The notes beneath the pieces are model-generated. The model made no database searches and was not told the DNA's origin. It was given only the letters and a program-made list of their open reading frames with translations. A stretch of 32,622 nt of DNA from contig VGYC01000073.1 in assembly GCA_016873095.1 (NCBI GenBank), positions 1-32,622 of the forward strand, read 5' to 3'. Source of the DNA: Planctomycetota bacterium. Lineage in GTDB: Bacteria > Planctomycetota > Planctomycetia > Gemmatales > Gemmataceae. Shown piece after piece: positions 1 through 17,082 of the stretch (positions are counted from its first letter, which is position 1; every line of letters begins with the position of its first letter). The position numbers were made by a program, and so were the translations under genes.

Positions 1-1014
1 CTTGCGGAAACGTGGGACGGCGAGCTGGATCCCAGGGGCTACTGGCTCAGTGAAAAGCTAGACGGCGTGCGGGCGTTCTGGGACGGCAAGCAGTTCCTGT
101 CACGGCAGGGCAACCGGTTTCACGCGCCGGCCTGGTTCACAGCAGGGTTGCCCCTTGAACCTCTTGATGGCGAGCTGTGGATCGGCCGTAAGAGCTTCCA
201 GCGTACGGTTAGCATCGTTCGGCGGCATGACGAGCCTGATCTGTGGCGAGCAATCCGCTTTCTGGTGTTTGATGCCCCCGCCGATGATGGCCCGTTCGAG
301 ACGCGGCTCAAGCTGATCGACACGATCATGCATATCAACCGCCCGGAGTTTGCCAGCGCCCACCAGCACGTCATTTGTTCCGGCCGTGACCAGCTGGATC
401 GTGAAATGGCCCACATTGAGCAACTGGGCGGCGAGGGCCTGATGCTGCGCCGGCCTGGGTCTGTTTACGCTGCTGGTCGGTCGTCCATTTTGCTCAAAGT
501 CAAACGGTTCCATGATGCGGAGGCCCGCGTGATCGGCTACGAGCCAGGGAGCGGCAGGCACAAAGGCCGGATGGGTGCCATTGTGGTCGAGATGGCCAAC
601 GGTGTGCAATTCGAGATCGGCACCGGCTTCACGGATTCCCAACGAGACCGGCCCCCGCCAATCAATGCTACGGTCAAGTTTGCCTACCAGGACCTGACCG
701 AGAATTGCGTTCCACGTTTCGCGTCCTACCGGGGCATCCGCGCCGATCTGCCGGTTACTGACCACATTCCACCAACACAAGGAGACATCATGCCAACCAG
801 CATCAGCAAGCGCCGCTTCGAGTTCGTCGGCGGATCGAGCGACAAATTCTGGGAGATCGGCGTCAACGGCAGCGAAGTCGAGGTCCGCTTCGGCCGCAAC
901 GGCACCAGCGGCCAAACGACGACGAAGACGTTCCCCGACAACGCGGCCGCCGAAAGGCACGCCGACAAGCTCATCCGCGAAAAGCTCGGCAAGGGCTACT
1001 GCGAAGTGAAATGA
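1..1014 (+). CDS. ATP-dependent DNA ligase fused to C-terminal WGR domain (5' end cut by window)
   Basis: The frame is open from the first base, so the true start lies to the left. The nucleotidyltransferase signature EKLDGVR (positions 52-72) holds the lysine that would be adenylated. It is followed by FLVFDAP (motif III), EGLMLR (motif IV) and LLKVKR (motif V), then an OB-fold-like stretch ending near position 770. The last ~75 residues are a WGR domain (FEFVGGSSDKFWEIGV, then RFGRNG), a nucleic-acid-binding module known from PARPs and MolR-type proteins. Such ligases seal nicks using ATP, unlike the NAD-dependent LigA that bacteria use for replication, so a role in repair or in the mobile element is likely. 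A strong ribosome-binding site sits before the WGR part, which may also be made alone. The ligase call is firm; the biological role is inference. Confidence 0.9.
   Translation, partial: LAETWDGELDPRGYWLSEKLDGVRAFWDGKQFLSRQGNRFHAPAWFTAGLPLEPLDGELWIGRKSFQRTVSIVRRHDEPDLWRAIRFLVFDAPADDGPFETRLKLIDTIMHINRPEFASAHQHVICSGRDQLDREMAHIEQLGGEGLMLRRPGSVYAAGRSSILLKVKRFHDAEARVIGYEPGSGRHKGRMGAIVVEMANGVQFEIGTGFTDSQRDRPPPINATVKFAYQDLTENCVPRFASYRGIRADLPVTDHIPPTQGDIMPTSISKRRFEFVGGSSDKFWEIGVNGSEVEVRFGRNGTSGQTTTKTFPDNAAAERHADKLIREKLGKGYCEVK
779..792 (+). promoter_or_regulatory. internal ribosome-binding site and ATG at the ligase/WGR junction
   Basis: AAGGAG (779-784) lies five bases before an in-frame ATG (790-792). 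Translation from there gives a 74-residue protein consisting almost only of the WGR domain. This is either a remnant of two formerly separate genes or a working internal start giving a second product. Confidence 0.5.
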
Positions 1015-1050
1015 ACGGATCGCCCAAAAGAGATGGGGGAGGAGGCAACA

Positions 1051-1212
1051 ATGGGAGCACGAGACAAACTCAACAGCGCCTACACCACGGGGTGCCTTGC
1101 CGTGGCCGGGCTTTTCGGATGGGCCACCGAGTCCTGGATGGTCTTCTTCATCGCCTTGGTGGTGCTGCTCGGCCTGGCTGTGAACAACGGTGACATCAGA
1201 CCGGGCAAATAA
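1051..1212 (+). CDS. small single-pass membrane protein, 53 aa
   Basis: ATG at 1051 is preceded by GGAGG (1041-1045) at good spacing, and the frame closes with TAA at 1210-1212. The protein has a short polar N-terminus, a hydrophobic stretch (roughly residues 15-46, including WMVFFIALVVLLGLAV) and a short polar tail. It lies 36 bases after the ligase and points the same way, so it may be co-transcribed. No family recognised. The good ribosome-binding site and clean hydrophobic segment support a real gene despite its length. Confidence 0.6.
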   Translation: MGARDKLNSAYTTGCLAVAGLFGWATESWMVFFIALVVLLGLAVNNGDIRPGK

Positions 1213-1259
1213 CGGCGCACGAGGATTGATACGGAACCTACGAACCAAGGAGAACAAGT

Positions 1260-1502
1260 ATGTCGCAAGTGAGCATCGAGAAGGCGGTCAACTTCGTCAC
1301 GGCGAAGCCGCTCGCGTGGATCCTGTACTGGCTCTGGCTGGCACTCAAGCACGGCTGGCTGGGCGCGATGTGGAGCGCGAGGTGGATTCGGGAACGGTGG
1401 CGGGCATGGCGAGCGGCCCGCACCAAGTCCGTGGCCGATTCGGAAACGCTGACAAACGGCCGTGCTGGTCGCATAGCCAAGCGTGGGCTGGCGAAAGGTT
1501 AG
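1260..1502 (+). CDS. small membrane-associated basic protein, 80 aa
   Basis: ATG at 1260 follows AAGGAG (1247-1252). The protein has a tryptophan-rich hydrophobic stretch in its first half (AWILYWLWLALKHGWLGAMW) and an Arg/Lys-rich second half, which suggests one membrane segment with a basic cytoplasmic tail. It is third in a row after the ligase and the 53-aa protein and is followed by a clear intrinsic terminator, so it probably ends that transcript. No known family recognised. Confidence 0.6.
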   Translation: MSQVSIEKAVNFVTAKPLAWILYWLWLALKHGWLGAMWSARWIRERWRAWRAARTKSVADSETLTNGRAGRIAKRGLAKG

Positions 1503-1530
1503 GTGTCGTGGCCACGTTCATCGTGGTCTT

Positions 1531-1566
1531 GCCGGCCCAGCAGACGTTGGGCCGGCTTTTTCTTTT
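1531..1566 (+). terminator. rho-independent terminator after the ligase/small-protein genes
   Basis: A perfect 9-bp stem GCCGGCCCA / TGGGCCGGC with an 8-base loop is followed directly by TTTTTCTTTT. It is 29 bases after the 80-aa gene, on the same strand. Confidence 0.85.
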
Positions 1567-1592
1567 AGCCATCGACGCCACGATTGCACGGT

Positions 1593-1769
1593 TCAGTTGC
1601 AGCCCTTCACGATCATCAAGAGAATGCCGCCGAAGAACGCGATTGTCAGAACGGACATGCAACCCTGAAATCCCTTGTAACCCGCCGGATCGTGGACGGC
1701 CGAAGGAGGCTTTCCCATCGCCGACGCAATGATGATTGCCAGAACTAGCAACGCAATTCCCCATGCCAT
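1593..1769 (-). CDS. small two-pass membrane protein, 58 aa
   Basis: On the minus strand, ATG at 1769 is preceded by GGAGGG at good spacing, and the frame closes with TGA at 1593-1595. The protein has two hydrophobic segments (WGIALLVLAIIIASAM and SVLTIAFFGGILLMIV) joined by a short polar loop containing HDPAGYKGFQ, so both ends probably face the same side. No family recognised. It is converging with the two small membrane genes to its left and diverging from the zinc-ribbon gene at 1971. Confidence 0.6.
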   Translation of the reverse strand: MAWGIALLVLAIIIASAMGKPPSAVHDPAGYKGFQGCMSVLTIAFFGGILLMIVKGCN

Positions 1770-1869
1770 ATTGCCCTCCCTTTACGTTCGTTGGTTTCGT
1801 TCACCCCTGTCAAGCCCTGCGGGAACCGCTCCCTTCATTCGCCACATTTTGTGGAAGTGATGGTTTCGG

Positions 1870-1919
1870 GTTCTCACAAGAACTTGGCGGATGAACTGGG
1901 CGGCGTCCGCAATGCTGGG
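1870..1919 (+). promoter_or_regulatory. shared leader element, copy 1
   Basis: A dyad GTTCT-CACA-AGAAC (1870-1883) is followed by TGGCGGA, then GCGGA-N14-TCCGC (1887-1910) and AATGCTGGG. The same layout precedes the next two genes at near-identical distance (61 bases from TCCGC to the ATG here). It could be a promoter/operator or a hairpin in the 5' untranslated region. Confidence 0.55.
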
Positions 1920-1970
1920 CAGTGACAGTCAGTCCAAACGAACGAGCTTTCAACGAAGGGGAGAATTGTC

Positions 1971-2561
1971 ATGGAGATTGCTTGCCCGCATTGCAGCCAA
2001 GCGCTGCCGGTCCCGGATCATAGTGCCGGCCAGTACATGCCCTGCCCCGAATGCAAAGTTCCGTTTGTAGCACCCCATATCGCAAGCAGGGTCATGGAAT
2101 GCACAATCCGGCGTCGCGGCGACAAAACGAAATGTCCGGCATGCGGTTGGGGACTCGATGAAGACGCCTATCGCTGTCCGAAATGCCGCATCTACTTCTG
2201 CTACACGTGCCGTGCCCGCGTGGGCAGGCAGGAAGACCAGTACCAGTGTGCCGACCAGTCGTGCAGCTGTTACGGCAAGCTACTGTGCTCGGCTTGCACT
2301 GTCATGGTTTCCCAAGAAGGGCCTGTCACTCGCCCGACGTTCCCCATCGACGAAGGGATGGCGTGGTTGGGATTCTGGGTGGGTGTAATCATCGGGTGTA
2401 TCGGTTGGTACTTCGCCGGCAGCTTTTGGGTTGGGCTGGGGACGGCCATCTCCATCTGGGGCATCTTGGTGTGGCTGGCGGTCCAGACGACAACCACAAC
2501 AGAGACGCTCGCCACGCCTCGTTGTTGCATCCAGTGCCGGCACCCGATCAAGTGCCTGTAA
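1971..2561 (+). CDS. multi-zinc-ribbon membrane protein, 196 aa
   Basis: ATG at 1971 has a GGGGAG ribosome-binding site. The N-terminus has two CPxC knuckles (CPHC, CPECKVPF) typical of planctomycete zinc ribbons. A second cysteine-rich cluster follows (residues ~50-105: CPACGW, CPKCRIYFCYTC, CADQSCSCYG, CSAC), then two hydrophobic helices (WLGFWVGVIIGCIGWYF and the following segment), then a cytoplasmic-type tail with CCIQC and CL. It is first of three consecutive genes with the shared leader element. Function unknown; a membrane-anchored zinc-binding regulatory or scaffold protein is a guess. Confidence 0.75.
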   Translation: MEIACPHCSQALPVPDHSAGQYMPCPECKVPFVAPHIASRVMECTIRRRGDKTKCPACGWGLDEDAYRCPKCRIYFCYTCRARVGRQEDQYQCADQSCSCYGKLLCSACTVMVSQEGPVTRPTFPIDEGMAWLGFWVGVIIGCIGWYFAGSFWVGLGTAISIWGILVWLAVQTTTTTETLATPRCCIQCRHPIKCL

Positions 2562-2586
2562 ATGCGGCCGGTCCAACTTTTCAGAA

Positions 2587-2636
2587 TTCTTGCGAAGAAC
2601 GTGGCGGACGACAAAGGCGGCATCCGCAAGGCTGGG
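2587..2636 (+). promoter_or_regulatory. shared leader element, copy 2
   Basis: Dyad TTCTT-GCG-AAGAA (2587-2599), then GTGGCGGA, GCGGA-N14-TCCGC (2604-2627) and AAGGCTGGG. TCCGC ends 55 bases before the ATG of the next gene. The order and spacing match copies 1 and 3. Confidence 0.55.
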
Positions 2637-2681
2637 TGGAAGCGGGAACCAATGGAACTTTCAACACAAGGGAGCGCGGTC

Positions 2682-3185
2682 ATGGAAAACAACGAATCGT
2701 CGATGGGGAAGGTGCTTGCGGAAGCGTTCGGCTCGCTGTTCACGCTTGTCGGCATCACGGCTTTTTGCATGTTCAACGGCTGCGGTACTTATCAGCCGCC
2801 GCCAAAAGGCGGGCCGATCCCTGTCGTGAATCCGACCAACGGTGATGTGGGAATGCTGACCAAGAATAGCGTCGTGGGCGAATGGCGAGGCATGTGTGCC
2901 CAGCCAAACTTTGCTCCCTATCCAATGATCATGTCCATGTCGGCGACGAAGGGCAGCGAGATTTCGGGGACCATCCACTGGCCCACGCTTAGAAACAGCA
3001 CGACGCGGTTCAGCGGCACCATCTACGGCACCAAGGTTCGTTTCGTCGAGACCGAGTTACTTTCCGGCTCCGGAATTGGAATCCCGTGCATCTATGAGGG
3101 TGACGTGCTTGGGAACACCATCGCGGGCACCTGTATTCATGCTGAGCAGAAAGCGACCTTCTCGGTTTCAATGGCGGCACGGTGA
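2682..3185 (+). CDS. secreted or lipid-anchored lipocalin-like protein, 167 aa
   Basis: ATG at 2682 was chosen over an upstream in-frame ATG at 2562 because AAGGGAG lies seven bases before it and the upstream 40 codons run through the leader element. The N-terminal hydrophobic segment (SLFTLVGITAFCMF) ends in NGCG, which resembles a weak lipobox. The rest is beta-rich (GEWRGMC, GTIHW, TTRFSGTIYG, IPCIYEGDVLGNTIAGTC) with paired cysteines, like small lipocalin-type domains. It lies between two other genes with the same leader and faces a kinase whose outside domain is also lipocalin-like. Function not known. Confidence 0.7.
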   Translation: MENNESSMGKVLAEAFGSLFTLVGITAFCMFNGCGTYQPPPKGGPIPVVNPTNGDVGMLTKNSVVGEWRGMCAQPNFAPYPMIMSMSATKGSEISGTIHWPTLRNSTTRFSGTIYGTKVRFVETELLSGSGIGIPCIYEGDVLGNTIAGTCIHAEQKATFSVSMAAR

Positions 3186-3230
3186 ACGGCATTCGCATGT
3201 CGCATGGAGTGGGCCACAAAACAGAAATTG

Positions 3231-3286
3231 GAACAAGTTCAACGGTGATTGTGGCGGATCTGATAGGTCATCTCCGCAAGGCTGGA
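3231..3286 (+). promoter_or_regulatory. shared leader element, copy 3
   Basis: Dyad GAAC-AA-GTTC (3231-3240), then GTGGCGGA, GCGGA-N14-TCCGC (3254-3277) and AAGGCTGGA, 57 bases before the next ATG. The dyad is in the opposite sense to copies 1 and 2 but in a similar place. Confidence 0.5.
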
Positions 3287-3333
3287 TAGACCCAAGAAGA
3301 CAAAGCACACAACTACGATTAGGAGTGAAAATC

Positions 3334-3789
3334 ATGCTAAAGAATAACTCTTCCGCCCTCGGTCAGATTCGGTCCCGACGCGGTGAAGGTAACGGGGGCC
3401 TGATTGCTGTCGTCCTCATTGTCGGTGGACTCATCTGGTGGTGGGGCAGCAACACGCAGGAAGGCAAGCAGGCATTCAAACAGACGGTCGCGGCCGTCCA
3501 GCCGCCGGTGCAGGTATCTCTCACACCCTACCTGATCTTCAATGGATACTACGTCAATGTCACGAACACGTCGAGCCACATCTCGCTCACAGACGTGACC
3601 GTAACTTACACCGATGCAACCGGAAATTCAGTGATGCAGAGAGTTGGCTCGTTGCGTCCTGGGGAAACGAAGACGCTTGATCCGTCCGACGCACGTTGGA
3701 CTGTGGAACGGCATGAGACGATCAGCGTTGCTGCGAATGGCCTCTACGTTCCCAAAGCGCTGGACACCAACGTACTGATCCACCGATGA
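3334..3789 (+). CDS. single-pass membrane protein with exported beta domain, 151 aa
   Basis: ATG at 3334 follows AGGAG (3321-3325). The upstream part of the open frame covers the leader element and is not translated in this model. The protein has a short basic N-terminus, one membrane helix (GLIAVVLIVGGLIWWW, residues ~22-37) and an outside domain with repeated beta-type segments (YYVNVTNTSSHISLTDVTV, RVGSLRPGETKTL), reminiscent of FxLYD/DUF3426-like interaction domains. It is third in the shared-leader array and ends 25 bases from the convergent kinase gene. Family unknown. Confidence 0.7.
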   Translation: MLKNNSSALGQIRSRRGEGNGGLIAVVLIVGGLIWWWGSNTQEGKQAFKQTVAAVQPPVQVSLTPYLIFNGYYVNVTNTSSHISLTDVTVTYTDATGNSVMQRVGSLRPGETKTLDPSDARWTVERHETISVAANGLYVPKALDTNVLIHR

Positions 3790-3814
3790 TCCGGCCGGTG
3801 GCAGCGGCCAGCGG

Positions 3815-5455
3815 TCACTTTCGCTTGTAGACTTGAACAATTATCTTGGAGCCCTTTGGGGACGTGAAATCGGTCGGCCTGTTGCGGTCGCCAGTCGGAG
3901 AAAACGCGTAGGTCAGCCGATCTCCTTCCAGCTTGTATATGCCGAGCACAACCTTGGTGCCGGACATTCTGTCGAACGCCTTTGGGCTCTTCGTGGGGTC
4001 AATCACGAACCTCCAGACAGCCTCTTGTTTGGCGATATAGGTGTAAGTCATCCTGTCGCCGCTCAAGAGCACTTGGGTTGATGTTGGTGTTTGTGACGTT
4101 TTGCCGTTTGACGTAATCGACTGCCTGATCCAAACGCCGGATAGCCGCTTGGATTCATCCGCCATGACGAGGGGTGGGTCCACGCTTGGGGGACGTGGGT
4201 CCTCAATCTCGACATCGGGCCATTCATCGCCTTCATCGGGAAGGCTAACGCGATCCTTGTCGGGGCTAACCTGCGGCCCTTTGTTCTGCCAAGGGCCGAA
4301 ACGCCATGCCAGCGAGATGACCGCAATTACCAGAACGGCCACAAGCACGCCGGGCAACAGGAGTCGAGCCACCTTCGGCCGCCTGGCCGACGACGTGCTT
4401 GTCATGGATGCTGAGCCGTCGATTGTCAGAGCGTTTACGAATTCCGAACAGGTCGGCCAGCGGGCATGCGGGTCTTTGTCAAGGGCACGCGCCACGGCAG
4501 CTCGCTCGCCTTCGGGCAGCATGGTGAGATCGGGCGTGCCTTTGAGGTGGCCTTCCATGACCTGCCCCGGATTGCCGACGAACGGCAGGCGGCCGCCGCG
4601 CAACTGGCAGTACGTGACCGCAAGCGAATACTGGTCGGACGTGCGAGCGGTGTGGCCCTGGAAGAACTCCGGCGGCGCATAGCTCAGCGTGAGGCTACCA
4701 GTGTGGTCGGTTACCGTCTTCTTGAGGATTCGCATGAGGCCAAAGTCGCCGATCTTGACGCCGCCACCCATCAGGAAAAGGTTTTGGGGCTTGATGTCAC
4801 GATGCTGGATTGCTTCCTTCGCGCTGTCTCCCAGATTGGCGTTCGGCTGATTCAAGTAATCGAGGCCCTTGGCGATCTCCTGCATGTACTGGATTAGTTC
4901 AGCTTTCGGGATTCCAATCTGGCCGTTCGTGGTCACCTCCGTTAGCCGATCCAGAAGGGTCTTGTCCGCTTGTTCCATCGCAACCATCAGGAAACCATGA
5001 GCCTGCCATGCGCCAAGGATGGAAAGCAGATTTGGATGATGTACCTTCTTCAGCACATCCAGCGAGCGAATCTCGCTGGCACCGAGTTGGCTGCTCAGCG
5101 GGACAAATTTCAGCGCGACGCCGAAGCCGCCCGGACCGATGGCCTTCCAGACTTCACCGAAGCCGCCTGCTCCCAGCTTCTTCTCCAGACGATAACCGCT
5201 AATCGGTTCCCAGCCAGGTCGTAGGTCGTCGTAGCGGGTGCGCCGCTGATTCGGGCTCATAGGGGCCTGGTCAGTCGGCGAAAAATCGAGCATGGCATCC
5301 ATCTTTTCGAGCGCGGCGATCTGCGACCGCAAAACGCTGAGCAGTTCCGGGCAGTCGCGGCAAAGCTCGTCAACGGAAACGGGATTACCGCCTCGCCGGC
5401 CCAGTTCCCATCGCAACAGCAGGTCATCCAGTTTCTGCGACACGCCCTTCTCCAT
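3815..5455 (-). CDS. membrane Ser/Thr protein kinase with extracytoplasmic TIGR03067 domain
   Basis: 546 aa. The N-terminal helical region (1-80) is of the type seen in planctomycete kinases. The kinase domain spans ~88-345: glycine loop GAGGFG (95-100), ATP-binding lysine in VALKFV (K116), catalytic loop HRDIKPQN (218-225), DFG (237-239) and PPE in the APE position. All catalytic residues are present, so it should be active. One membrane helix follows (364-384), then a linker and a C-terminal TIGR03067-type domain (~437-544: LSGVWIR, DPTKSPKAFD, VLGIYKLEGDRLTYAF), a lipocalin-like fold frequent in this phylum. It starts six bases after the sigma factor stop and is probably co-transcribed with it. 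Phosphorylation of the sigma factor or a partner is inference. Confidence 0.93.
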   Translation of the reverse strand: MEKGVSQKLDDLLLRWELGRRGGNPVSVDELCRDCPELLSVLRSQIAALEKMDAMLDFSPTDQAPMSPNQRRTRYDDLRPGWEPISGYRLEKKLGAGGFGEVWKAIGPGGFGVALKFVPLSSQLGASEIRSLDVLKKVHHPNLLSILGAWQAHGFLMVAMEQADKTLLDRLTEVTTNGQIGIPKAELIQYMQEIAKGLDYLNQPNANLGDSAKEAIQHRDIKPQNLFLMGGGVKIGDFGLMRILKKTVTDHTGSLTLSYAPPEFFQGHTARTSDQYSLAVTYCQLRGGRLPFVGNPGQVMEGHLKGTPDLTMLPEGERAAVARALDKDPHARWPTCSEFVNALTIDGSASMTSTSSARRPKVARLLLPGVLVAVLVIAVISLAWRFGPWQNKGPQVSPDKDRVSLPDEGDEWPDVEIEDPRPPSVDPPLVMADESKRLSGVWIRQSITSNGKTSQTPTSTQVLLSGDRMTYTYIAKQEAVWRFVIDPTKSPKAFDRMSGTKVVLGIYKLEGDRLTYAFSPTGDRNRPTDFTSPKGSKIIVQVYKRK

Positions 5456-5461
5456 CGTGGT

Positions 5462-6064
5462 TCATTCTGGCAACGTACCATTCATGGCCTGGAAGATCTT
5501 CAGCCGTGCTGATTGCCACCGGCGTTGCAGCGTGCGCTCGGACAGATTCAGAAGCGTGGCCGCTTCGGACTGCGGGATGCCGTGATACCAGAGGATGTTG
5601 AACACTTCCCGCTCCTCTGCCGGCAGTGCTTCGACCTGCTTGTGAAATTCACTCCACTGCGCCAGCTTGCCAGGGTCCATAGTCGTTTCTGATGCCACCG
5701 CAATCGGCGTCTCGGCTTGGCCTGCTCCTGTGTCGTGATGGGCACCCGGCCCTTGGGGTCCGTAATGGTGTCGAGCCAGGTCGATGAGTTCACGGCGGAT
5801 GTGCAAGGCCGCCAGGTTCAGGAAGTGCTTCACGGATTCGGGGGCAGTGTCATTCAATGCCCGGCAGAGCCGAATCACGGCGTTTTGAAAAATGTCGTCG
5901 GTTTGCTCCCAGCGGGCAACTCCGGGATATGACTTGAGCATCTTGCGGGTGAGCCGTTGCAAGCGGTCGCAGGCGCAGCTTATCAACTCGTCCTTGGCTT
6001 TCGCGTCACCCGCCTTCAGCCGGTCGATGTAGGATTGCAATCGTGTTGTCTGGCTCTCGACCAT
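5462..6064 (-). CDS. ECF-type RNA polymerase sigma factor
   Basis: 200 aa from ATG at 6064, preceded by GGGGAC; a TTG six codons earlier (6082) is possible but has no better ribosome-binding site. Region sigma-2 lies in the first half (RLTRKMLKSYP, WEQTDDIFQNAVIRLCRAL, with the DDxxQ core). Sigma-4 is at the C-terminus (LPAEEREVFNILWYHGIPQSEAATLL, a helix-turn-helix ending LQRRWQSARLKIF). No C-terminal extension or anti-sigma gene is seen; the downstream kinase takes that place, as in the kinase-linked ECF groups described from planctomycete genomes. It may drive the three shared-leader genes across the convergent junction; that is inference. Confidence 0.9.
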   Translation of the reverse strand: MVESQTTRLQSYIDRLKAGDAKAKDELISCACDRLQRLTRKMLKSYPGVARWEQTDDIFQNAVIRLCRALNDTAPESVKHFLNLAALHIRRELIDLARHHYGPQGPGAHHDTGAGQAETPIAVASETTMDPGKLAQWSEFHKQVEALPAEEREVFNILWYHGIPQSEAATLLNLSERTLQRRWQSARLKIFQAMNGTLPE

Positions 6065-6129
6065 CTGCGTCCCCGAAAGCAAAGAGTGCCGAACCTCGAC
6101 ACTGCTCGCAGGACGCCGACGAAGGCGCA

Positions 6130-6339
6130 GACGAACAGCGCGAGGCCGGCACCCTTTCGGGTGCGGCCAAGCACTGCCTCGTCAGATACAAGAGCCTTTC
6201 GGCTCAGGTTAGTCGTTTCCCTGAAGCAGTAACTTGACTCGCAAGAGTCAGAACAGATTGTTGCCGCAGCGATCGCTTTCGCCGCGGGTCAGGTTCGTGT
6301 CGTTCTCCTGGTTGTCTTGATGGGCCGGCACGCGCCGGC
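6130..6339 (-). ncRNA. strongly folding leader upstream of the sigma/kinase operon
   Basis: Read on the minus strand, five hairpins follow one another: GCCGGC-GCGT-GCCGGC (6324-6339); a 9-bp stem CCGCGGCGA/TCGCTGCGG with one G-U pair (6264-6287); TGACTC-TTGC-GAGTCA (6235-6250); GAGCC-GAAA-GGCTC (6192-6205); and a 54-base extended hairpin (6130-6183) capped by GCACCC-GAAA-GGGTGC with further pairing GGCC/GGCC, CAGTGC/GCGCTG and GACGA/TCGTC. Two GNRA loops on this strand favour it as the transcribed one. It ends 65 bases before the sigma factor ATG. A structured leader, attenuator or small RNA is likely; no known Rfam class recognised. Confidence 0.5.
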
Positions 6340-6439
6340 TCGATGATGCCAATTTACCCGCTTTTCGCGGTTTTGCCACTGGCTTGCGGCATTCCGCGAG
6401 GACTTCACCATCCTCCCATTCAGCCGCGCCGACGGGCAA
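6248..6439 (-). CDS. possible small protein, 63 aa, TTG start
   Basis: An open frame from TTG at 6439 to TGA at 6248-6250 that ends inside the third hairpin of the leader. The peptide is polar (its end reads NDTNLTRGESDRCGNNLF), without membrane segments or known motifs. There is no clear ribosome-binding site. It could be a leader peptide or a fragment of a decayed gene. Weakly supported. Confidence 0.25.
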   Translation of the reverse strand: MPVGAAEWEDGEVLAECRKPVAKPRKAGKLASSSRRVPAHQDNQENDTNLTRGESDRCGNNLF

Positions 6440-7356
6440 TCCGTTTGGCGCTCGGTGCCAAGTCCGGCGGCACGGTGACGGGGCAGCAGCCGATTGGTCG
6501 GCCGGGGTTCGCGTATGGGGCCGGAAATAGTTGCGGGCACACCTCCTGGTGGGACTCCCGGTGCCTCTTGCGCCCAGTTAATTCGGGGCGTGGGTAAGGC
6601 CGAGGCAAAGGCTGCGCGGTGTCATCAGGAAAGGCCCATGCAGAAACGTGCAGGCGAAGGGCCACGCGCAAGTCTGTCGAGCGGGGTAATGAGGCTGGTG
6701 TCGGAGGTGATCTCGGCCGCCCAATCGAGGCCCTGGCTGACCCCGGTTCTTGCTGCCGATCCAGGTCTCGGCGTCCTGGCCGACGCCTACCCCGATGCAA
6801 GGCTTGACCGGCCCCAAAGCACTGGCTTTCAAGCCCCTGCTTGCGGGCCGTGACGTTGCCAAATCGTCCCTTCATGGGCCGGCAATGCAGCCGTTCTGCG
6901 GGCTGTGGCGGAAGGGGTACGCGAAAGGCAACGGAAGGAGGGGTCGGAGGTGGTGCGGAAAGGTGTGGCCACGGTATTGCAGACGGGTGTGGCAAGGGGC
7001 ATTTTCACTTGTGCCCGCTGGGTCCGTTGGCAGCCGGGGCATGGCGTTGGGCACCGGCGGCGATGAGGTCACCGAGGGATGGCCGAAACGGGGATCCGTA
7101 GCATAGGCGATGGCCCCTCTGAACGCTCGCCGCCAGGGTGTCGAACCAAGCAAGGAACGGATAGTTAGGGGCAATATCGGACAAAGAGTGACAGCCGCTC
7201 TGATTCCAGCCTTCCCAGGCTGAACCGGGATCGGCACGCAGGCATGTGGAATGCAATCGCGGTCGCAACATCCGATTGGCTGACAGTGTGTGAAAGGGTG
7301 CCTGCCTGCAACTGGATTGCCTACAGTGGATGTCGATGAATCAGCGGAATGGAGTG
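6340..7356. other. 1.0 kb without a convincing gene
   Basis: Open frames occur on both strands, but all have biased, low-complexity translations, overlap one another, and lack ribosome-binding sites. Several inverted repeats are visible, such as GGCCC...GGGCC enclosing TGCA-GAAACG-TGCA (around 6629-6660) and GGCTTGA...TCAAGCC (around 6803-6836). It may be a decayed mobile gene or a non-coding RNA locus; I cannot decide which. Confidence 0.5.
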
Positions 7357-7405
7357 ATGTTGTTGTAGCAGCAGCTATATACTATAGCTGCTGCTACAAC
7401 AACAT
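7357..7405. repeat. large perfect inverted repeat, 23-bp arms
   Basis: Two perfectly complementary 23-base arms (7357-7379 and 7383-7405) flank the three-base centre TAC. The arms contain TTGTTGTAGCAGCAGCTATA and its complement. The symmetry continues imperfectly outwards: GGAATGG before the left arm and CCATTCC after the right arm, with small gaps. There is no T tract on either strand, so a terminator is unlikely. It lies 91 bases beyond the stop of the AAA ATPase gene. A replication, recombination or protein-binding site is more likely. Confidence 0.85.
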
Positions 7406-10663: not shown

Positions 10664-10906
10664 TTACCGTAAGCAATCTTCGTGCTTCGTAGCTTCGGCC
10701 GATTCGTTGATCAGCCGGTCAATATCTTGTTTCCGCCACCTGCGGCTGCCACCGATCCGGATCGGTTTCGGAAGTTGCCCGGTCTGGCACAAGCGGAAAA
10801 CCGTCCGGCGGTCGATTCGTAGGATGTATTCCAGCTCGCCAATTTTCAAAAGCGGCTGGGGGTGCATCTCGGCCCCAGGCTCCGTGTCGGTTGCAAGGTT
10901 GGACAT
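10664..10906 (-). CDS. AlpA/excisionase-type helix-turn-helix protein, 80 aa
   Basis: ATG at 10906 was chosen because AAGGAG lies seven bases upstream; an ATG at 10942 would overlap the preceding gene. The core is the MerR-like HTH_17 fold: LLKIGELEYILRIDRRTVFRLCQTG, then LPKPIRIGGSRRWRKQDIDRLI, with the R-W contact segment typical of excisionases. Proteins of this kind assist the integrase during excision or regulate the element. Last gene before the terminator. Confidence 0.85.
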   Translation of the reverse strand: MSNLATDTEPGAEMHPQPLLKIGELEYILRIDRRTVFRLCQTGQLPKPIRIGGSRRWRKQDIDRLINESAEATKHEDCLR

Positions 10907-10929
10907 GCTTGGCTCCTTTGCAGTAAGGG

Positions 10930-11148
10930 TCACGGTTGACATCCGGGGTTTTCTGAGTTTGTCCCGAAATGTCCTCCGCTACCCTCCCTGTGAACGCCGT
11001 ACAAAACTGAGTGCGTCTGCCCACGAAGCCGTACTGTCGTAGGCGTGTGAGGAGGCGCGGCAGGTGTCAGACGGTCAAAATCGACCTCCCAGGATTCCAA
11101 GCGGGCGGAATCTCGATTAGTGGACTGTGCAAGGGATGACGTGGTCAT
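10930..11148 (-). CDS. small coupled protein, 72 aa
   Basis: ATG (11146-11148) overlaps the TGA of the zinc-motif gene as ATGA, a typical sign of translational coupling. It ends 23 bases before the start of the HTH gene. The product is polar, with ARLESWEVDFDRLTPAAPPHTPTTVRLRG reduced here to its core WEVDFDRLTP; no motif is recognised. The ATGA overlap and the position in a tight row are the only support. Confidence 0.5.
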   Translation of the reverse strand: MTTSSLAQSTNRDSARLESWEVDFDRLTPAAPPHTPTTVRLRGQTHSVLYGVHREGSGGHFGTNSENPGCQP

Positions 11149-14181: not shown

Positions 14182-14397
14182 CTAGGTCTCTTCGTGTGAC
14201 ACGAGGAACTTTGCGGCGAGTTCTACTAGCGCGCGCCTGGGAATCCGCCTGGATCTGCCGAGCTTGACGTAAACAAGCTCACCCCGACCCATCATTGCGT
14301 AAAGACTGCCGACAGAAATCCCCAGGAAGCCGGCCGCCTCCTTGATGGGGACCAGGCCGTCGCATACCAGGTTTTCGCGCACATTTTTTTCCAACAT
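14182..14397 (-). CDS. excisionase-family HTH protein, 71 aa
   Basis: ATG at 14397 with AAGGAG upstream. Core HTH_17 fold: LVPIKEAAGFLGISVGSLYAMMG (recognition part LGISVGSLYAMM), then LVYVKLGRSRRIPRRALVELA. The length and pattern fit small excisionase/regulator proteins. It is the first gene of the minus-strand row and diverges from the 14599 gene and the integrase. It probably binds the dyad just upstream (14433-14455) and controls both directions; that is inference. Confidence 0.85.
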   Translation of the reverse strand: MLEKNVRENLVCDGLVPIKEAAGFLGISVGSLYAMMGRGELVYVKLGRSRRIPRRALVELAAKFLVSHEET

Positions 14398-14598: not shown

Positions 14599-15693
14599 AT
14601 GAAGAAAAAGAAGAGAATAAAGGGCAAGAAGCTGGAAACCGTTTGGCATCTGCCATATTTCGGAGTGGTGTTTGACACCTTTCCGGGACGACCGCCTATC
14701 GACAATGCCGATGTGGGGGAGATCTGTCTGCGCCCAGCGTATTCTGCCGATGATGTCGGCTTGCCCACGGAGGAGGTGACGCGCGTTCTTGAGAACAAGC
14801 ATCAGTGCGATGGCGTCGGCAAATCGACCTTGTGGATAACACCCCAACGCGTCGAGGCGGAAACTCTAGCGGATACCTGGAGCAGCAATCATCACAAACC
14901 GTATCGAGCGGCTGATCGCCCTGTAATGCTCGACACCGCGCTGTTCATGATGTTTGCGTCAATGGAGCCGAGCCCCGAAGGGATTCTTCAGTTCGCACGA
15001 GAATATGGGAATCTCACCGAAGGCTACTGCCCGATCCTGGTGTGGCAAGAAGAGGTGGTGGCTATGCGCTGGGCTTTGCGAATCTGGGAATGCCTGAAAG
15101 CGAACAACTCCGCCAATATCCGCAAGCACTTTCGCTGGCGCCCTTTTCCCAAGGAGCTGCGCGAGTATCTGAAAAACCCAAGCCATGCGCCGTTGTCAAA
15201 TGAATATCTCTACGAGTGGTTGACGGGAACGGTGGGAAAATGGAACTACCTGGAGTTCGACAGCCACCCTGATCTGGCCCACGGCAGGCAGGCGAAGTTT
15301 CCTGATAAGCGATTGACCGAAACGATTTCCCTGCGTTGCCTGTCCCAGGAAGAATGGAATCGCCAGACTGAGAGCTTGAATCCCCTGGCGGTGGCGAGCG
15401 CGTACCTCCTTCAAGTTCTCAACGACCGAACCAGGACATATTTGCAGCCACGGCTCGATTGGAAAGATGCAATAACACTCACTCGGTCTTTCGCACCGAA
15501 ACATCTCCTCGGCAGGCTTTGGTTGCAGTTCGAGGAGAGTATCACGGGTCGAAAGGAATACCGCGTTTGCCAAGGACCGGGATGTGGCAAGAGCTTCGAG
15601 GTTTCGCCAGCAATCGCCAGGTCTGACAAGCTATACCATAGCGAATCGTGCCGAGTCAGGGCGTACCAGGCCCGCGCGAAACAAACACGGTAA
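14599..15693 (+). CDS. zinc-finger protein upstream of the integrase, 364 aa
   Basis: ATG at 14599 follows AAAGGA. The N-terminus is very basic (MKKKKRIKGKKLE). The large middle part is soluble and aromatic-rich, with no recognised motif. The last ~40 residues hold a cysteine/histidine cluster CQGPGCGKSFEVS, then YHSESCRVRAYQARAK. That tail is like the CGNR-type zinc finger, a DNA-binding module. It ends 76 bases before the integrase, same strand, so the two are likely one transcript. A role in recombination or control of the integrase is inference. Confidence 0.75.
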   Translation: MKKKKRIKGKKLETVWHLPYFGVVFDTFPGRPPIDNADVGEICLRPAYSADDVGLPTEEVTRVLENKHQCDGVGKSTLWITPQRVEAETLADTWSSNHHKPYRAADRPVMLDTALFMMFASMEPSPEGILQFAREYGNLTEGYCPILVWQEEVVAMRWALRIWECLKANNSANIRKHFRWRPFPKELREYLKNPSHAPLSNEYLYEWLTGTVGKWNYLEFDSHPDLAHGRQAKFPDKRLTETISLRCLSQEEWNRQTESLNPLAVASAYLLQVLNDRTRTYLQPRLDWKDAITLTRSFAPKHLLGRLWLQFEESITGRKEYRVCQGPGCGKSFEVSPAIARSDKLYHSESCRVRAYQARAKQTR

Positions 15694-15769
15694 ACCGGGA
15701 CTAAGGATTGTGATGTTGACGAAGGCAAAGTCGATTAGTGGACTTGAGCAAACAGAAGGGAAGTGCATC

Positions 15770-16924
15770 ATGAAAAAGGAAAAGCAAAACAGAAGGCGTC
15801 GAGGCAGAGGAGAGGGCGGCATCTACCAGCGCGGAGATGGCCGGTGGGTGGGCTGCGTTAGCCTCGGGTGCAGTGTGGAGGGCAAACGCAAGCGCCGCGT
15901 AGTCTACGGTGCAACAAAGCAAGAGGTGGCGACCAAGCTCCGCAAACTGTATGATGCGGCCAGCCTGCCCCGCGAACTGGCCCGCATCACGCTTGAAAGC
16001 TACCTGACGAGATGGCTGGATCTGGTCAAGCCGACGGTCGAGTTCGGGACGTACAGGCCGTACAAGCACCACGTCAACAATCATATTGTCCCGATCATCG
16101 GCACGTTGAAGCTTGTCGAGCTGAAACGATTCCATGTCGAAGAGCTTTATGCGGCGCTGACGAAGAAGGCGGTGTCGGCGGCCATGCAACGCAAGATCGG
16201 TACGACGCTCACGATCGCTCTGGGGGCGGCCGTTGACAAGGAAATGATCGCATTCAATCCGGCCTCACGCGTGCGAAAGCCCAAGGCGGCTAAGCCGGAG
16301 ATTCACCCTCTTGATCCCGACCAGGTTGCTGCCTTCCTTTCGGAGGCGAAGGAGGATCGGTTTTATGCCTTCTACGTCATGGCCGTGGACACCGGGATGC
16401 GACCGGGCGAGCTTTTCGCCCTGCGTTGGTCGGATATTGATTTCGACGCCGGGCGCGTGACAGTGAAGAGGTCGGTAGCTCCGAACGAATGGGGCCAGCT
16501 GGAAGCCAAAGATGTGAAAACGCAGAAGGGGCGGCGGCAGATTCGTCTTTCAGCATTCACCCTGGCGGCGCTTCAGGATCATCGCAAGAAGATGCTCGCC
16601 GAGGGGCACGCCGCCGCGCCGGTTTTCTGCAACACGGCCGGGCATTACATCCATCTCAAGGACCTCCACCGCCATTCATTCAAGCCGATCCTGAAGCGGG
16701 CGGGGTTGGCCGACGTTCGGCTCTATGACCTGCGGCACACATGCGCTACGTTGCTGCTGCTGGCGGGCGAAAACGTGAAGGTGGTGTCGGAGCGACTGGG
16801 GCACTCCACGACGGTCATGACCCTGGACGTGTATAGCCACGTGCTTGAAGGCATGCAGGAACAGGCGGCGTCCAAGATGGAAAAAATCCTGACGCACCGC
16901 CCCAGGAAGGCCGCGCATGCGTAA
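15770..16924 (+). CDS. tyrosine recombinase / integrase
   Basis: 384 aa. ATG at 15770 was chosen for its AGAAGGGA ribosome-binding site; an ATG at 15713 is the alternative. The N-terminal arm-binding domain begins RGEGGIYQRGDGRWVG, and a SAM-like core-binding domain follows (~72-170). The catalytic domain has the arginine in TGMRPGELFALRW (R211), YDLRHTCATLLLLAGE (R322, with tyrosine at the usual first histidine), ERLGH (H345) and the nucleophile in TLDVYSHVL (Y355). It would insert and excise the element at the adjacent tRNA-Leu gene. Confidence 0.95.
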   Translation: MKKEKQNRRRRGRGEGGIYQRGDGRWVGCVSLGCSVEGKRKRRVVYGATKQEVATKLRKLYDAASLPRELARITLESYLTRWLDLVKPTVEFGTYRPYKHHVNNHIVPIIGTLKLVELKRFHVEELYAALTKKAVSAAMQRKIGTTLTIALGAAVDKEMIAFNPASRVRKPKAAKPEIHPLDPDQVAAFLSEAKEDRFYAFYVMAVDTGMRPGELFALRWSDIDFDAGRVTVKRSVAPNEWGQLEAKDVKTQKGRRQIRLSAFTLAALQDHRKKMLAEGHAAAPVFCNTAGHYIHLKDLHRHSFKPILKRAGLADVRLYDLRHTCATLLLLAGENVKVVSERLGHSTTVMTLDVYSHVLEGMQEQAASKMEKILTHRPRKAAHA

Positions 16925-17020
16925 TCTGCCTCGGATTGGCTACACTTAGGCTACATTTTGCCTCACCAGTCCCGAACCGGAATCGACGTAACTCTAGTGG
17001 CCGCGGTGGGATTCGAACCC
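16925..17020. other. probable attachment-site junction
   Basis: The integrase stop is 73 bases from the 3' end of tRNA-Leu. Two direct GGCTACA repeats (16938-16944 and 16949-16955, 11 bases apart) could be recombinase arm sites. The 3' part of the tRNA gene is the likely core. No second copy of that core was found in the window, so the other end must lie to the left of position 1. Confidence 0.5.
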
Positions 17021-17082
17021 ACACGGGGGTTACCCCCCAGGGGATTTTAAGTCCCCAGTGTCTGCCATTCCACCACGCGGCC
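16998..17082 (-). tRNA. tRNA-Leu (UAA anticodon)
   Basis: The 85-base gene has a GGCCGCG/CGCGGCC acceptor stem, an anticodon stem GGGGA/TCCCC with loop CTTAAAA (anticodon TAA), a long variable arm GGGGG-GTAA-CCCCC as in leucine tRNAs, and TTCGAAT in the T loop. The discriminator base is A, and CCA is not encoded. Its 3' end faces the integrase, the classic arrangement for integration into a tRNA gene. Confidence 0.95.

Follow-up and report, generated by a model that had tools for sequence, protein, structure and literature searches.

Genes and features of the locus

The window, that is, the whole stretch of DNA analysed here, comprises 32,622 nucleotides of contig VGYC01000073.1 from a member of the Gemmataceae (Planctomycetota). 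Judging from its genes, the left half of the contig (1-17000) looks like a tRNA-integrated mobile island that carries the gene cluster described below. A tyrosine recombinase gene (15584-16924, plus strand) lies at the island end and adjoins the 3′ end of a tRNA gene (16998-17082, minus strand), and other island genes encode a Prim-Pol protein, an AAA_25 replication protein, and a WGR-domain DNA ligase of the ATP-dependent type. Two helix-turn-helix proteins of the island (10664-10942 and 14182-14397) appear excisionase-like, as read from their translations. A related locus (L100), reached through the AAA_25 protein, contains 44-bp direct repeats, tRNA-like by eye, 13.2 kb apart, which matches the expectation for tRNA-integrated islands. 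The draft genome that carries the island yielded no second attachment site.

Four genes of the cluster carry a common upstream element, and their proteins are mutually dissimilar, with hydrophobic segments in all. The minus-strand gene (1593-1769) encodes a 58-residue protein with two hydrophobic segments (MAWGIALLV...). On the plus strand, gene 1971 (1971-2561) encodes a 196-residue protein whose N-terminal half is zinc-ribbon-like and which has two hydrophobic segments, gene 2682 (2682-3185) a 167-residue protein with an N-terminal hydrophobic anchor and a predicted β-barrel, and gene 3334 (3334-3789) a 151-residue protein with an N-terminal hydrophobic helix and a β-rich region. The earlier note described the three plus-strand genes as otherwise unlike each other, which is borne out: BLASTP gives no relation among them, and each contains a hydrophobic segment. 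Gene 2682 has no homologue in 95 family genomes, and the best matches to its predicted fold are weak, none at E 0.001 or better. Gene 3334 has two homologues, rare and distant (family genomes G090 and G151), and the structure model of its protein was too poor to use. Viral and plasmid searches with the cluster proteins returned nothing useful. No sigma-70-like promoters were found 5′ of the four genes.

The clearest family homologue of gene 1971 (48%, residues 38-194) is in genome G070, among integron attC-like sites. It is carried by one cassette of an integron-like array with four such sites (L079, G070:C44, 9272-11447). The window's own genome contains two integron-type integrases (C132 and C83).

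The convergent neighbour of the cluster is a gene for a Ser/Thr protein kinase with a C-terminal TIGR03067 domain (3815-5455, minus strand); the name of the domain model (Planc_TIGR03067) hints at planctomycetes. Upstream of the kinase gene lies a gene for an ECF sigma factor (PF07638; 5462-6082, minus strand; probable ATG at 6064). Neither gene has the element upstream.

Two small genes, 1051-1212 (53 residues, hydrophobic) and 1260-1502 (80 residues, below the hydrophobicity cut-off), also lack the element. Both lie close behind the DNA ligase gene, with a terminator-like hairpin (1531-1556) at their end, and the missing element is as expected if it is limited to genes with their own promoter.

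A 38-bp core in four copies

The core of the element is 38 bp in length and is present in four copies, each oriented towards the gene that it precedes and starting 75-86 bp 5′ of the ATG. Copy 1 (TGGCGGATGAACTGGGCGGCGTCCGCAATGCTGGGCAG; 1885-1922, plus strand) starts 86 bp 5′ of the ATG of gene 1971, copy 2 (2602-2639, plus strand) 80 bp 5′ of that of gene 2682, and copy 3 (3252-3289, plus strand) 82 bp 5′ of that of gene 3334. Copy 4 (1807-1844, minus strand; TGGCGAATGAAGGGAGCGGTTCCCGCAGGGCTTGACAG, read from 1844 to 1807) starts 75 bp 5′ of the ATG of the divergent gene (1769). In an ungapped alignment, all four cores begin with TGGCG(G/A)A, followed by ~15 variable bases that include an inner G and, in most copies, GGCGG, and then by a 3′ part that reads (T/C)CCGCA(A/G)(G/T)GCT(G/T)G and a closing G.

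The earlier note had reported the dyad GCGGA-N14-TCCGC before genes 1971, 2682, and 3334, and an exact match to this pattern, with AA(T/G)GCTGG(G/A) following, is present on the plus strand at 1887-1918, 2604-2635, and 3254-3285. The block after the dyad is thus present as described, with two corrections: it begins with AA(T/G) rather than A(A/T)(G/T), and it starts 54-60 rather than 55-61 bases before the ATG. A dyad of 4-5 bp lies 5′ of all four cores, with sequences and spacings that differ between copies; by chance, roughly a third of 33-bp stretches contain a dyad of 4 bp or longer, and roughly a tenth contain one of 5 bp or longer.

Copy 4 was missed by the earlier note. It was found, as a minus-strand match at 1850-1761, by searching the 8.36-Mb draft genome with a sequence-only profile built from the three plus-strand leaders. 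Scored on a matrix of copies 1-3 alone, it reaches 21.9 bits, compared with 8.6 for the runner-up position in the window. Copy 4 stands directly 5′ of the 58-residue gene, which is divergent from gene 1971, so that copies 1 and 4 are back-to-back, their core starts 41 bp apart and each facing its own gene. It retains the sequence blocks and has lost the full dyad.

The likeness among the leaders was assessed as the best joint match across the three 150-bp regions before the ATG. In copies 1-3, 21 of 34 columns are invariant, compared with 10-15 in 400 dinucleotide shuffles. With up to three mismatches, the extended pattern occurs in the window only at copies 1-3; at this loose threshold, one in 100 shuffles had it at three or more places. 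A profile from all four copies gives exactly four strong matches in the window, at 42-48 bits, and the match ranked after them has 11 bits. Pairwise alignment z-scores are 3.7-7.5 for the core, -1.7 to 2.1 for the 40 bp upstream, and -0.5 to 3.5 for the downstream tail, where likeness is clear between copies 1 and 2 only (z 3.5). Conservation is therefore confined to the 38-bp core, with little or none upstream. We note that this conservation is judged on four sequences from one genome, and that recent copying may contribute to it beside selection.

Occurrence of the element elsewhere

At the threshold used, a search of the whole draft genome with the four-copy profile returned the same four copies only. 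The three-leader profile gave a few weaker genome matches outside the window, at E 0.0016 and above and with poor alignment over the core. The pattern was also sought with as many as three mismatches in the window's own genome and with one at most across the family; all other matches examined as loci lie inside longer open frames. The genome-wide pattern scan proposed by the earlier note thus reveals no dispersed repeat, and the element is tied to gene starts.

Among 95 family genomes, the four-copy profile found weak matches only; 19 of them were examined, nearly all in long open frames and none convincing. No convincing copy was seen in 94 family members or at 20 related-island loci, the latter identified through the AAA_25 helicase; at these loci, the best score of a matrix scan was 14.8 bits, compared with 41-46 bits for the four copies. 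The element was also absent from the loci of the proteins' homologues, as judged by a matrix scan. One exact consensus, TGGCGGA-N14-TCCGCAAKGCTGG, had three matches in public bacterial genome and viral collections, all in coding frames. So far as the searched collections show, the element is private to the cluster.

The element as a putative promoter or operator

Directional copies at a near-constant distance precede four genes, and no further copy was detected in the draft genome. We consider it reasonably probable that the element is a directional promoter or operator common to an island-borne mini-regulon of four accessory genes. A function at the DNA level fits best because of the directionality, the fixed distance, the confinement to 38 bp, and the back-to-back arrangement of copies 1 and 4. 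The element could be a promoter for an alternative form of RNA polymerase, or an operator that overlaps the transcription start or lies a short way 5′ of it. Its two blocks, TGGCGRA and YCCGCARKGCTKG, are separated by ~21 bp from centre to centre (TGGCGRA to CCGCA), or two helical turns, and may both be reached by a protein on the same face of the helix. The transcript would begin just past the core and have a leader of ~40-50 nt with a Shine-Dalgarno sequence. A helix-turn-helix protein of the island is a candidate reader, and the neighbouring ECF sigma factor is a less likely one. The kind of mechanism proposed here is probably right, its details less so.

The first alternative is a structured RNA leader, in which the core, as part of the 5′ untranslated region, would fold by pairing GCGGA with TCCGC and control translation or attenuation. 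The position of the element 5′ of each gene is consistent with such a leader, as are the outer dyad, which is perfect in copies 1-3, and the choice of the outer stem by RNAalifold. However, two of the five pairs are broken in copy 4, and there are no compensatory changes in the stem across the four copies, with zero pairs changed on both sides. Single-sequence RNA folds do not surpass those of shuffles (z -0.5 to 0.8), copy 2 prefers another fold to the motif hairpin, and Rfam gives no match in the region 1000-4500 at E up to 5. Moreover, because just 41 bp separate cores 1 and 4, an RNA leader would force two upstream promoters into one gap. An inner dyad, GCGG-N3-CCGC, is found in copies 1, 2, and 4 and not in copy 3. 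We consider an RNA leader unlikely. The conserved feature is, on our reading, the sequence blocks rather than the pairing, because the dyad is broken in copy 4 without compensatory change and the folds are at the shuffle average. For the same reasons, we do not uphold the suggestion of the earlier note that a dimer site with fixed N14 spacing, or a hairpin, is the essence of the element.

A short conserved peptide, [LV]AD..G.[VIL]R[KN]AG, was considered as well. The pattern fitted three copies and was also matched in frame by chance in public genomes. It was rejected, as copy 4 has a stop at the Gly position together with non-conservative changes, three codons have invariant third positions across copies 1-3, and a codon-degenerate search of 95 genomes returned only copies 1 and 2 and one match with two mismatches.

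Relation to the neighbouring sigma factor and kinase

A second alternative follows a suggestion of the earlier note, that the genes face an ECF sigma factor and a receptor kinase with which they might form one signalling and effector system. The neighbouring sigma factor would read the element as its promoter, the kinase would act as the switch, and both would belong to one system with the four membrane proteins. Autoregulation of ECF sigma operons is common, and such sigma-kinase pairs are numerous in planctomycetes, the latter counting against this alternative. The genes are indeed adjacent, the element resembles ECF promoters in that its two blocks, spaced by about two helical turns, precede genes for exported or membrane proteins, and Ser/Thr kinases are well established as regulators of ECF sigma factors (review PMC8103513). 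However, most ECF -35 boxes (GGAAC type) have a central A-tract (PMC8103513), which is missing from the first block of the element, TGGCGRA in each of the copies. The sigma/kinase operon is itself without a copy, as there is no strong profile match upstream of 6082 on the minus strand. The related-island loci have no sigma homologue, and weak kinase matches occur at two of them only. Taken as a single system, the sigma factor, kinase, and four membrane proteins make an improbable reading, and the proposal of an ECF promoter, read by the neighbouring sigma factor, does not hold up. The sigma factor is a possible reader of the element, a candidacy suggested by its position. What stands of the earlier proposal is a tiny set of genes with a common directional leader element; the putative signalling link to the kinase is suggested by neighbourhood.

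Duplication of leaders and recombination

The four copies could also have arisen by duplication with no dedicated regulator, one gene's leader having been copied before incoming genes, so that the core would be residual likeness. The cluster sits on a mobile island, and leaders 1 and 2 are alike beyond the core, which points to a duplication of whole leaders. However, the flanks are largely randomised, and many core columns are invariant in all four copies. A core so well kept amid largely randomised flanks speaks for selection on it, and we regard duplication without a regulator as quite improbable.

The weakest alternative is a recombination site, either attC-like or a cassette boundary, that brought the genes in singly. 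The element resembles integron attC sites in placing inverted repeats between small genes, GCTGGRY is similar to the GTTRRRY core site, with one change, and the G070 homologue of gene 1971 and the two integrases of the host genome noted above are in line with this origin; but this reading is very improbable and largely refuted, as no paired RYYYAAC/GTTRRRY surrounds the inner arms in the window from 1 to 6500 with one mismatch allowed, sites were found in the G000 integron contigs and in G070, both unlike the element, no copy lies 3′ of the last gene, and the divergent pair conflicts with a one-way cassette array.

Comparison with known systems

A promoter or operator of a local mini-regulon, the reading that we prefer, is familiar in type. 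Small local regulons with a common operator or promoter are a general class on mobile islands and prophages. The present case resembles them in that accessory genes each have a copy of a short directional element near the presumed transcription start, and differs in that the targets are four dissimilar membrane proteins. Like sigma-54 promoters (TGGCAC-N5-TTGC), the element has a first block that starts with TGGC; unlike them, it has no GG-N10-GC common to the four cores, whose doublets are without a fixed 10-bp spacing. To our knowledge, the sequence of the element matches no known motif. A literature search on planctomycete promoters, including those of the many sigma factors of these bacteria, returned nothing directly on topic, and very few such promoters seem to have been described.

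The novelty of a small private regulon on an island is modest. Four natural copies of a private element nevertheless make a clean small test case, with a defined consensus, few possible regulators, and a single island. If the element represents a new promoter class, it would aid the reading of cargo control on mobile elements of planctomycetes. A bolder reading, which we hold to be doubtful, is that the island owns a transcription system, with an unusual sigma factor or activator and a promoter type not yet described, whose targets are only the four membrane or exported proteins. If true, this would be a private surface programme for a mobile element.

One further feature of the island is a perfect inverted repeat at 7357-7405, just 3′ of the AAA_25 gene, with 23-bp arms (ATGTTGTTGTAGCAGCAGCTATA and TATAGCTGCTGCTACAACAACAT) and 3 bp between them. 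Other large palindromes lie near the AAA_25 gene of L100. These palindromes are perhaps replication origins or terminators.
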